This document shows, piece by piece, positions 33,561 to 37,986 of a stretch of 39,451 bases of DNA (its first letter is position 1; each line of letters opens with the position of its first letter). The DNA lies in contig JAJDVR010000048.1 in the NCBI GenBank assembly GCA_022826025.1, positions 1 through 39,451 on the forward strand, in the 5' to 3' direction. The notes under the pieces were generated by a model that was not told where the DNA came from, searched no databases, and worked only from the letters and a program-made list of their open reading frames with translations. Position numbers and translations under genes: made by a program. Origin of the DNA: Gemmatimonadota bacterium (GTDB lineage: Bacteria > Gemmatimonadota > Gemmatimonadetes > Longimicrobiales > Gaopeijiaceae).

Positions 33561-35513
33561 TTGCAGATAGTGGATAGAACATATGACGTGATCGTGGTGG
33601 GCGGAGGCCACGCCGGGGCTGAGGCAGCGGCGGCAGCCGCGCGCCTCGGAACCCGGGTTCTGCTGATCACCCCGGACCTTGCGCGCATCGGACAGATGAG
33701 CTGCAATCCTGCGATCGGAGGCATTGCGAAGGGCGTCGTTGCGCGTGAGGTCGACGCGCTCGGGGGGGTCATGGGACGGGCCACGGACGCGGCACGCATT
33801 CACTTTCGCATGCTCAACCGCTCCAAGGGTCCGGCCGTGTGGGGTCCGCGCGCGCAGTGCGACCGGACCCTGTATTCGCTGGCGGTGCGACGAGTGCTGG
33901 AAGAGCTGTCGACGCTGGATCTCTTTCAGGATATGGTTTCCGATCTCGTGCTACAGTGCGACCGGATCGCCGGTGTGCGGACGCGCACCGGACTAGAGTT
34001 CCGGGCCCCGGCCGTGGTCATCACGACAGGGACATTTCTTCGCGGCCGCATTCATGTCGGCTTGGGAGCCGGGGTGGAGGGGGGGCGCGCCGGAGAAGAA
34101 GCCTCCGTCGAGCTGGCCTGTGCGCTCGAGGGTCGCGAGTTGGAGGTGGCGCGTTTCAAGACGGGTACGCCGCCCCGCATCGATGGCCGGTCCGTGGACT
34201 ACGGGAAGCTGGAAGAGCAACCGTCGGAAGCCGGGGGGGTTCGCTTCTCCGCGTTCGTCCACGAGGAGTTTCCGGGCGAGCGTCCCTGCTGGATTACGTG
34301 GACGGGGAAGGAACTAAGGGACATCGTGCAGGAAAACCTCGAGCGGAGCGCCCGGTTTGGCGGGGACATCGCGGGCCGGGGGCCGCGGTACTGTCCGTCC
34401 ATCGAAGACAAGATCGTCCGGTTTCCGGACGCACGCGGGCACCAGGTGTTTCTGGAGCCTGAGGGGTTGGACACGACCGAACTCTATGTGAACGGGTTGT
34501 CGACTTCCTTGCCCCCGGAAGTGCAGCTCCGTTTCCTGCGGAGCGTACCTGGTTTGGAGCGGGTGCGCATGACCCGTAGCGGGTACGCGATCGAGTACGA
34601 CTACTTCCTTCCGCATCAGCTGCGGCACTCCTTGGAGGTGAAGTCGGTAGCGGGACTCTTCTTTGCCGGGCAGATCAACGGCACAACGGGCTACGAAGAA
34701 GCCGCCGGGCAGGGATTGGTGGCCGGTGCAAACGCCGGCCTGGCCGCCCTGGGGGAGGCGCCTTTCATTCTGGAGCGCGACCAGGCGTACATTGGTGTGC
34801 TGATCGACGACCTGGTCACCAAGGGGGTGGATGAACCCTATCGACTCTTCACCTCGCGTGCGGAATTTCGGCTGCTGCTCCGCCAGGACAACGCACTCGC
34901 GCGCCTGGGACCGGTAGCGCGCGAAAGGGGTCTGTTATCTCCCAGCCAGACCCGGGTGCTTGAGCAGCGCCTGGAAACGGAACGGCGTCTGATCGAGTGG
35001 TTTCGATCGACGCGCCTGGAGCCGGAACAGGTGAACGACGCGTTGGCGGAAGCGGGATCGAGCCCATTGCGCACTCCCGCACGAGCGGTGGAGTTATTGA
35101 GAAGGCCGGAGGTGAGGTCGGATGCGCTGATTCGGGCGGCCAATGCGTCGTTTGTTGAAGATGGTTGGGAGGAGGCCCTGCCGGCTGTCGAGGTCGACCT
35201 GAAATACAAGGGATATGTCCAGCGCGAGCGGGATCGAGCGGCCGCTCTTCGGGCGCGTGCGGCATTCCGGATTCCGCAAGACATCGTGTACGAAGGTCTG
35301 GTGACGCTGTCGCACGAGGCCCGCGAAAAGCTCGATCAGGTACGACCGGCCACCTTGGCGCAGGCCTCGAGGGTCTCGGGTGTCTCGCCGGCGGATCTTC
35401 AGAACCTCGTCATGGAGATCCGGAAGCAGGGGAGCGCCGCTTCAGAGCGTTTCACGGGAAACATGACGGTGAAACAAGGTCGTAGAACGGACCGTGTTTC
35501 ACGGGAAACATGA
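33561..35513 (+). CDS. mnmG: tRNA uridine-5-carboxymethylaminomethyl modification enzyme MnmG
   Basis: YDVIVVGGGHAGAEAAAAAARLG; GQMSCNPAIGGIAKGVVAREVDALGG; GQINGTTGYEEAAGQGLVAGANA. The C-terminal tail is encoded by the parS-containing repeats. Confidence 0.97.
   Translation: MQIVDRTYDVIVVGGGHAGAEAAAAAARLGTRVLLITPDLARIGQMSCNPAIGGIAKGVVAREVDALGGVMGRATDAARIHFRMLNRSKGPAVWGPRAQCDRTLYSLAVRRVLEELSTLDLFQDMVSDLVLQCDRIAGVRTRTGLEFRAPAVVITTGTFLRGRIHVGLGAGVEGGRAGEEASVELACALEGRELEVARFKTGTPPRIDGRSVDYGKLEEQPSEAGGVRFSAFVHEEFPGERPCWITWTGKELRDIVQENLERSARFGGDIAGRGPRYCPSIEDKIVRFPDARGHQVFLEPEGLDTTELYVNGLSTSLPPEVQLRFLRSVPGLERVRMTRSGYAIEYDYFLPHQLRHSLEVKSVAGLFFAGQINGTTGYEEAAGQGLVAGANAGLAALGEAPFILERDQAYIGVLIDDLVTKGVDEPYRLFTSRAEFRLLLRQDNALARLGPVARERGLLSPSQTRVLEQRLETERRLIEWFRSTRLEPEQVNDALAEAGSSPLRTPARAVELLRRPEVRSDALIRAANASFVEDGWEEALPAVEVDLKYKGYVQRERDRAAALRARAAFRIPQDIVYEGLVTLSHEAREKLDQVRPATLAQASRVSGVSPADLQNLVMEIRKQGSAASERFTGNMTVKQGRRTDRVSRET
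35448..35463 (+). promoter_or_regulatory. parS-like site 1
   Basis: CGTTTCACGGGAAACA; two mismatches to consensus TGTTTCACGTGAAACA. Confidence 0.75.
35449..35479 (+). repeat. 31-bp direct repeat, copy 1
   Basis: GTTTCACGGGAAACATGACGGTGAAACAAGG, identical to copy 2 at 35496-35526, 47-bp offset. Confidence 0.97.
35495..35510 (+). promoter_or_regulatory. parS-like site 2
   Basis: TGTTTCACGGGAAACA; one mismatch to consensus TGTTTCACGTGAAACA; upstream of parAB. Confidence 0.88.
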
Positions 35514-35526
35514 CGGTGAAACAAGG
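35496..35526 (+). repeat. 31-bp direct repeat, copy 2
   Basis: GTTTCACGGGAAACATGACGGTGAAACAAGG. Confidence 0.97.
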
Positions 35527-35872: not shown

Positions 35873-36046
35873 CAGTCTCCTGGATCAGTCCGCGCGCACC
35901 GAGACCGGCGAGGCGCCGGGCTGGCAGAAGCGCTTGAAGGCCGAATAGCAGCGCTATTGGGCCGAAAGGGATCGTAGAGCACGCGATCCAGCGCGGATGC
36001 ATCGCCGCTCGAATGCCGGGCGGAGTTGTCCAGGGGCTGCCACCTG

Positions 36047-36079
36047 CGCTGTCCGGCGTCGGGCCGGAGCAGGACAGCG
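36047..36079 (+). other. Inverted repeat/hairpin in parA upstream region
   Basis: CGCTGTCC (36047-36054) ... GGACAGCG (36072-36079), perfect 8-bp arms. Confidence 0.5.
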
Positions 36080-36269
36080 AGCCCATGCCAGGATGACCTG
36101 CAATCAGGCGCAAAGCCACATGCCGGCGACGCGCATCCACCTTTTCCGCAAACCGGGGGGCCGGTAGCTTTCCAGTGCGACCTCTTCCCCGAATTCGGAG
36201 TTCGACCCAGGGAACCTGCCCGTGTTGTGGAGAAATCTCGCCCCCGGAAAGAGCTGACCACTGCTAGCC

Positions 36270-37064
36270 ATGTCCAGAGTCATCACCATCGCCAACCAGA
36301 AGGGGGGCGTAGGCAAGACCACAACTGCGATCAACCTGGGAGCTGCGTTAGCGGTGGCTGAACAGCGCACGCTGGTCATCGACATGGATCCACAGGCCAA
36401 TGCAAGCAGCGGATTGGGCCTCTGGAGCCATGATCAGGTCTCCGGCATGTACGACGTCATGATCGGGGGGCGCTCGATCGAGGAATCAAGGGTTCGTCAG
36501 CTTCACTTTCCCTACCTGGACATGGTCGGCACCACGCGCGACCTGGCCGGCGCAGAGATCGAACTGGTAGGCGTGGAGGCCCGTGAATCCGTTCTGCGTA
36601 CGGCACTTGAGCCCATTCGCGACGATTACGACTACATTCTCGTGGACTGTCCCCCTTCGCTGGGACTCCTGACGCTCAACACCCTCACCGCGGCCGACTC
36701 CGTACTCATCCCGATTCAGTGCGAGTTCTACGCGCTGGAAGGCCTCAGCCAGCTTCTCAACACAGTGCGAATTGTACAGCGGGGGCTCAACACGGGCCTG
36801 GAGATCGAGGGCGTGCTCCTGACGATGTTCGACAAGCGGCTCAACCTCTCGAAACAGGTCGCCCGGGAAGCCCGCGAGTACTTTGGGGACAAGGTCTTCA
36901 CGAACGCGATTCCCAGGAACGTTCGGCTTGCCGAGGCGCCGAGCTTCGGCAAGCCCATCATCGTATACGATGTCCTCTCAGCTGGAGCCCGTTATTACCT
37001 CCGTCTGGCGAGGGAAGTCATTCAGCGACGCAACACCGGATTACCGGGACGGGAGCCCGCGTAG
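36270..37064 (+). CDS. parA: Chromosome partitioning ATPase ParA/Soj
   Basis: MSRVITIANQKGGVGKTTTAINLGAAL; DYDYILVDCPPSLGLLTLNTL. Confidence 0.97.
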   Translation: MSRVITIANQKGGVGKTTTAINLGAALAVAEQRTLVIDMDPQANASSGLGLWSHDQVSGMYDVMIGGRSIEESRVRQLHFPYLDMVGTTRDLAGAEIELVGVEARESVLRTALEPIRDDYDYILVDCPPSLGLLTLNTLTAADSVLIPIQCEFYALEGLSQLLNTVRIVQRGLNTGLEIEGVLLTMFDKRLNLSKQVAREAREYFGDKVFTNAIPRNVRLAEAPSFGKPIIVYDVLSAGARYYLRLAREVIQRRNTGLPGREPA

Positions 37065-37068
37065 CTTC

Positions 37069-37986
37069 ATGAGCGTTGCTCCGAACACTCGACTCGGGCG
37101 CGGCCTGGGCGCCCTGCTTGGGGATCATCTCGATCGGCCCGTGGAAGGCGAAGTCGCACGCCTGCCCCTGGATTCCGTGGGCCGCAACCCCTTCCAGCCC
37201 CGTCGCAAGTTCAAGGAAGAGGAAATCCGGGAACTCGCGGCGTCCATCAGCGCAAACGGATTGCTCCAGCCCGTTCTCGTCAGATCCACGCCCGCACCGG
37301 AGCATTGGGAACTGGTGGCGGGAGAGCGCCGACTTCGAGCTGTGACCAGACTCGGCTGGAGCGAGGTACCGGCAATCGTCCGCGAGGTGGATGACGAAAC
37401 CATGCTTGTGCTGGCGCTCGTAGAGAACCTCCAGCGCCGCAATCTCGGCGCGCTGGAGGAAGCCGAGGGCTACAAGGTGCTTGTGGAGAAATTCAAGCGC
37501 ACTCAGGAGGACATTGCGCTGGCTGTCGGGAAGAGCCGCGCCACGATAACCAACATCCTCCGCCTTCTGAAGCTCCCTGTCGAGGTCCGGCAGTTGCTCG
37601 GGGCGGAGAAGCTCACGCCGGGACACGCGCGGGCGCTTCTCGCCGTCGACGACCAGGAATGGGCCGTCGAGTTGGCTCGAATGGTAGTCGAAGGCGGTTG
37701 GTCCGTCCGCAGGCTGGAGGAGACCGTGCGCTTGAACCCGACGCGTCCGCCTGGCAATGAGGACGCACCGGACCGCCGAAAACGCCGGGCTCGGCAGTCG
37801 GGAACACCGGATCCGGTGCTGCACGCGTTGCAGGAAGAGTTGCGCGCCGCGCTCGGGACACGAGTCGTAGTTCGACGGCAGCGAGGAAGCAAGGGGCGCA
37901 TCGAGATCCCCTTTCACGACGATCGGGATCTCGAACGTGTCTTTGCCCTGGTGTCGGGTCGGGAGGCCGCGGATGTTCTGGAATAG
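37069..37986 (+). CDS. parB: Chromosome partitioning protein ParB/Spo0J
   Basis: RLGRGLGALLGD; LVAGERRLRAVTRLGWSEVPAIVREV; ALVENLQRRNLGALEEAEGY. The track ORF start at 36883 is too early. Confidence 0.96.
   Translation: MSVAPNTRLGRGLGALLGDHLDRPVEGEVARLPLDSVGRNPFQPRRKFKEEEIRELAASISANGLLQPVLVRSTPAPEHWELVAGERRLRAVTRLGWSEVPAIVREVDDETMLVLALVENLQRRNLGALEEAEGYKVLVEKFKRTQEDIALAVGKSRATITNILRLLKLPVEVRQLLGAEKLTPGHARALLAVDDQEWAVELARMVVEGGWSVRRLEETVRLNPTRPPGNEDAPDRRKRRARQSGTPDPVLHALQEELRAALGTRVVVRRQRGSKGRIEIPFHDDRDLERVFALVSGREAADVLE

Follow-up and report, generated by a model that had tools for sequence, protein, structure and literature searches.

A conserved parS-like element linked to a LAGLIDADG-fold protein gene points to a possible two-part chromosomal centromere

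We describe a doubled 28-bp element at the 3′ end of mnmG, ahead of parAB, in a Gemmatimonadota genome, in which a degenerate parS is joined to a second conserved box immediately upstream of a gene for a small LAGLIDADG-fold protein. We lean towards the view that this repeat is a two-copy, two-part centromere in which ParB would bind the dyad and the LAGLIDADG protein the box, the whole taking the place of palindromic parS; its main rivals are a selfish endonuclease that targets palindromic parS and simple autoregulation of the LAGLIDADG gene. We take as established that the element is conserved, that it is strictly linked to the gene in a fixed orientation, and that it replaces palindromic parS in Gemmatimonadota.

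Background

The parS of bacterial chromosomes is commonly regarded as a single, almost universal palindrome, with ParB as its sole reader. The parS of plasmid P1 is an asymmetric composite centromere read by ParB together with the accessory DNA-bending protein IHF, a host factor that is encoded elsewhere and has a fold unrelated to LAGLIDADG. WhiA is a LAGLIDADG-derived regulator with a chromosomal role and links to chromosome segregation (PMC3781837). In the literature searched, which left preprints and many subscription journals uncovered, neither LAGLIDADG proteins nor homing endonucleases were linked to ParB or parS except through WhiA, and no paper was found describing the arrangement of element and LAGLIDADG gene reported here.

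Methods

The window is the whole of contig JAJDVR010000048.1 (39,451 nucleotides) of a Gemmatimonadota metagenome-assembled genome (GCA_022826025.1). Homologous loci were gathered by a profile search with the protein product of ORF2, blind to the DNA motif, which yielded 118 homologues, of which 80 loci were kept. Statements about whole genomes derive from pattern searches, and phyla are those of the record titles (Gemmatimonadota, Acidobacteriota, Actinomycetota, Chloroflexota, Armatimonadota, Deinococcota, Dormibacterota, Elusimicrobia, Binatia and others).

Results

A doubled 28-bp element at the end of mnmG

The window carries mnmG, a small open reading frame (ORF2), parA and parB, with dnaA nearby (Table 1). 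Among its close relatives are a contig titled BD2-11 clade and four records titled Gammaproteobacteria (L134, L135, L136 and L138); the latter titles look wrong, the MnmG proteins being about 95% identical to that of the window and the genomes belonging to the same Gemmatimonadota genus. Between ORF2 and parA the window has some 400 bp (35873-36269) without an evident gene. An rsmG gene between mnmG and parA in relatives was not borne out; several of them have a lipoprotein-like ORF between parS and parA.

Table 1 Features of the mnmG-parB region in the window
Feature	Position	Strand	Remarks
mnmG (gidA)	33561..35513	+	Beyond the conserved domains, the tail past residue 616 runs through the elements
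28-bp composite element, copy 1	35449..35476	+	Inside mnmG 3′ tail; core invariant in 9 genomes of the genus
ParB dyad (degenerate parS), copy 1	35449..35462	+	GTTTCACGGGAAAC
Second box, copy 1	35463..35476	+	ATGACGGTGAAACA; proposed binding site of the LAGLIDADG protein (putative)
Variable spacer between copies	35477..35495		Over 35476-35495, 10 of 20 positions differ among congeners
28-bp composite element, copy 2	35496..35523	+	Overlaps mnmG stop and ORF2 start
ParB dyad, copy 2	35496..35509	+	
Second box, copy 2	35510..35523	+	Opens with ATG, the ORF2 start codon
ORF2, single-motif LAGLIDADG-fold protein, 120 aa	35510..35872	+	Catalytic-type acid E23 kept
parA	36270..37064	+	
parB	37069..37986	+	HTH and C-terminal domains; specificity residues R173 and G201 kept

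A preliminary description of this DNA had reported a 31-bp direct repeat carrying a parS and an extra half-site, and the repeat is confirmed, with identical copies at 35449-35479 and 35496-35526, 47 bp apart. The 31-bp sequence is absent from 100 shuffles of the window, the parS core GTTTCACGGGAAAC has no other copy with up to one mismatch in the 3.9-Mb genome, and the core is invariant in congeners, which together rule out a chance repeat. The figure of 31 bp describes the repeat but not the conserved unit, which is 28 bp long because the trailing AGG, present in both window copies, is not common to both copies in most congeners. The unit consists of the ParB dyad GTTYCACGTGNWAC, a degenerate parS, followed by the box NTKACGGTGAAACA. 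Among nine congeners, 0 of the 54 positions in the two 27-bp cores vary, compared with 22% in mnmG and 50% in the spacer. As far as sequence can tell, the parS call has good support, as does the extra half-site, and ParB would be expected to bind the element of the window in vivo, an expectation backed indirectly by the co-variation of the dyad with ParB and by the binding published for Thermus thermophilus (both below). The extra half-site proves to be the important part, since it marks the conserved 28-bp element tied to the downstream LAGLIDADG gene.

The same description had read the repeat as a recombinational switch able to fuse mnmG and ORF2. The repeats are indeed identical over 31 bp and 47 bp apart, and the frame arithmetic is correct: the copy-1 ATG at 35463 is in the mnmG frame (35463-33561 = 1902 = 3 x 634), the mnmG TGA occupies 35511-35513 and ORF2 starts at 35510, so that a 47-bp loss would join both frames. 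The fusion would, however, have about 754 residues and roughly 82 kDa, not the ~75 kDa predicted. Both copies and separate genes are kept in all nine genus members with an assembled locus, where MnmG always ends in VSRET* within copy 2. Beyond the genus the layout is not kept, and in most other carriers mnmG does not directly adjoin the element. In one genome of another genus (G020) the doublet and ORF, while keeping their orientation relative to each other, are inverted relative to mnmG and parA and make no contact with mnmG, which removes the basis for a switch of this kind; we consider it hardly credible, though rare variants within a population may occur. Contigs C82 and C126 of G020 (end of L101 and start of L102) overlap and carry near-identical copies of ORF2, probably strain variants of one locus.

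The element accompanies the gene across phyla

The 80 loci span at least nine phyla. With up to three mismatches allowed in the 14 arm positions, the element was found upstream of the gene in all 73 testable loci, as against one match in 26,182 positions of control stretch, and under strict matching 97 of 101 copies are no more than 350 bp upstream and share the strand of the gene. This relative orientation holds whatever the orientation of mnmG and parA. The weighted consensus of the element is GTTYCACGTGNWACNTKACGGTGAAACA (28 bp). parA is nearby in 71/80 loci, in either orientation and nearly always with parB. Genome-wide, most elements adjoin the gene, with one or two per genome, and the extended motif GTTTCACNNGAAAC-N6-GTGAAAC is found, invariably as two copies, in precisely those 10 of 118 relatives in which the ORF is present. 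Of two complete Armatimonadota genomes, one has the element at the sampled skew minimum and the other not clearly so. Four more distant LAGLIDADG homologues (L222-L225, family f7) are without the 28-bp element.

An undescribed LAGLIDADG-fold family

The characterization of ORF2 as LAGLIDADG-like is borne out by its predicted structure, an AlphaFold model (pLDDT 93) of LAGLIDADG topology with an alpha-beta-beta-alpha-beta-beta-alpha fold and a LAGLIDADG helix, whose best matches among solved structures are I-OnuI, I-CreI and their relatives (E from 2e-5). At the sequence level the family has no match in Pfam or NCBIfam, including their WhiA domains, no relative among solved structures, and a single weak match in PHROG, labelled HNH endonuclease. 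It thus lies outside curated families and is previously undescribed. E23, at the catalytic position of the LAGLIDADG motif, is invariant in 54 sequences, and dN/dS among nine congeners is 0.05-0.15, indicating purifying selection.

No homologues of ORF2 were found in the plasmid, phage or viral-contig collections searched, and an origin of the gene in any of these was set aside on that account. Horizontal transfer was likewise not inferred from trees: the ORF2 tree, with 105 columns, is too weak (an AU test does not reject a single Gemmatimonadota clade, p 0.37), and in the ParA tree the Gemmatimonadota form one clade.

Palindromic parS is mostly missing where the gene is present

The palindrome GTTYCACGTGRAAC was found in none of 13 gene-bearing Gemmatimonadota genomes versus 238 of 284 that lack the gene (n=297; Fisher 2e-10, a figure inflated by the inclusion of related genomes). 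The safer gene-bearing count is 0/9, since four of the 13 carry distant homologues without the element. Genomes of different genera or lineages (g1, G211, G302, G020 and G124) are all without the palindrome, G020 having been searched for the GTTTCACNNGAAAC form only. The genome of the window has no GTTYCACGTGRAAC and carries the degenerate asymmetric dyad instead, while relatives without the gene have palindromic sites downstream of mnmG, often as doublets, of the form GTTTCACGTGAAAC or GTTCCACGTGGAAC. In seven gene-lacking Gemmatimonadota loci (L110, L111, L121, L122, L126, L128 and L129) parS is GTTCCACGTGGAAC, usually in doublets ~43-53 bp apart. Across phyla, 31 of 33 gene-bearing genomes are without palindromic GTTYCACGTGRAAC and two have it, a count made without matched controls, and Thermus without the gene also has mostly non-palindromic parS. 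To judge from these patterns, the element seems to replace ordinary parS.

The near absence of palindromic parS from gene-bearing genomes is also what selfish homing would produce, with a LAGLIDADG homodimer cutting palindromic parS on a homologous chromosome and repair copying in the gene together with a linked, cleavage-resistant composite parS. A homodimeric LAGLIDADG enzyme would naturally target a palindrome, the catalytic-type acid E23 is invariant, and the distribution is patchy, with a switch inside one genus, g62, G211 being unlike most siblings. Contrary to a typical homing cycle, however, the gene is kept in all nine assembled congeners under strong purifying selection; the element is a specific sequence conserved across phyla, not just any non-palindrome; and the searches of mobile and viral collections returned no homologues. 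We therefore regard selfish homing as rather unlikely.

The dyad and the box behave as separate parts

Positions 1-14 of the element resemble parS with a decayed inner half, and positions 15-28 form a nearly invariant box. Four lines of evidence underlie this division. In Thermaceae without the gene the dyad GTTTCACGGGAAAC is present and the box never comes after it, and in most Thermaceae with the gene both are there (two of eight gene-bearing loci show no element at the strict setting used); in Thermus thermophilus HB27, ParB binds the same 14-mer as parS (PMC4409726). The arms of the element are asymmetric: left position 4 takes T or C (72 and 38), as in parS, and at the mirrored position on the right 110 of 112 have A. 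ParB residue 201, which helps to set specificity at base pair 6, has been reported as an absolutely conserved Gly (PMC7383237), yet in six Dormibacterota (L170, L191, L195, L201, L209 and L210) it is Ser, and in the same six, position 6 of the element changes from A to G and its mirror position 9 from T to C, while position 22 in the box stays T; these six form one clade and probably represent one event. Finally, the upstream linkage of gene and element is kept in four loci of Armatimonadota and Elusimicrobia that lie away from parAB. In the Armatimonadota loci L172, L178 and L194, which lie apart from parAB, gene and element are beside an apparent valyl-tRNA synthetase gene.

These observations bear on two further explanations. 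ParB might read the whole element alone, as a parS of three half-sites, with the LAGLIDADG gene a linked passenger: each of the three sub-sites looks like a ParB half-site, R173 is retained in ParB, as is G201 outside Dormibacterota, and a complete parS half-site (GTGAAACA) closes the box, which ParB could therefore bind as well. The Dormibacterota box nevertheless does not follow the change in ParB, and genomes without the gene have no box even when they have the same dyad, which makes this explanation quite improbable. The 28 bp could instead be only the operator of the LAGLIDADG gene, its likeness to parS arising from descent or overlap and with no role in partition. The fixed orientation of the element and its strictly upstream place, kept also at loci where parAB is not a neighbour, speak for such an operator, and the four loci away from parAB fit plain autoregulation as well as a two-part centromere. 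The co-variation of the dyad with ParB residue 201 points the other way, as does the placement of the element in the window genus, within the mnmG coding region and at a start codon and not in an ordinary promoter region; moreover, palindromic parS is missing where the element is present, so that no other obvious centromere is left. On balance we judge autoregulation alone to be unlikely.

Discussion

Alongside the observations listed at the outset, we treat three further results as settled: the dyad co-varies with ParB residue 201 and the box does not, the ORF2 protein is predicted to have a LAGLIDADG fold, and its gene is under purifying selection. Under the two-part centromere that we favour, positions 1-14 would serve ParB as a parS dyad with a decayed inner half-site, and positions 15-28 would be a separate box for the LAGLIDADG protein. 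The protein encoded immediately downstream is the most likely ligand of the box NTKACGGTGAAACA: it would be a domesticated homing-endonuclease fold that binds there, perhaps bending the DNA, and would aid ParB loading by helping it to nucleate on a parS too weak alone. Sitting on the upstream region of its own gene, it could also autoregulate. parA, parB and the LAGLIDADG protein would then make up a ParABS variant in place of one based on palindromic parS.

The window locus shares with chromosomal ParABS systems on palindromic parS (TGTTTCACGTGAAACA) the position of parA and parB next to mnmG near dnaA, GTTYCAC half-sites, a ParB with HTH and R173/G201, and a pair of sites at the locus, a trait also of relatives lacking the gene; it differs in its decayed inner half-site, fixed second box, LAGLIDADG gene and lack of palindromic parS. 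The parSc of T. thermophilus HB27 (TGTTTCCCGTGAAACA; PMC4409726) has an identical 14-mer dyad on the other strand but no second box, and no LAGLIDADG homologue was found in the genome carrying the published probe sequence. With WhiA the family shares a LAGLIDADG fold in a chromosomal role; unlike WhiA, it is a lone domain that keeps the catalytic-type acid and has no detected WhiA Pfam domain. LAGLIDADG homing endonucleases such as I-CreI and I-OnuI have the same fold, single-motif size class and catalytic-type acid, whereas ORF2 has no intron or intein context that we could see, and the conserved sequence upstream of it is intact and doubled beside its own gene. The closest parallel in design, P1 parS with IHF, is likewise an asymmetric composite centromere with an accessory protein, the proposed partner here being chromosomal and encoded beside its site.

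More tentatively, and short of an even chance in our estimation, the element may represent a class of chromosomal centromere hitherto undescribed and present in at least nine phyla. On its asymmetric 28-bp parS, ParB would have an obligatory, site-specific partner in a domesticated protein of homing-endonuclease fold, and the centromere would thereby gain a direction. If this is true, a bacterial centromere can be remodelled and acquire a partner protein, and the homing-endonuclease fold takes part in chromosome segregation; a two-part centromere with a partner protein not described before may be at work in some bacteria.
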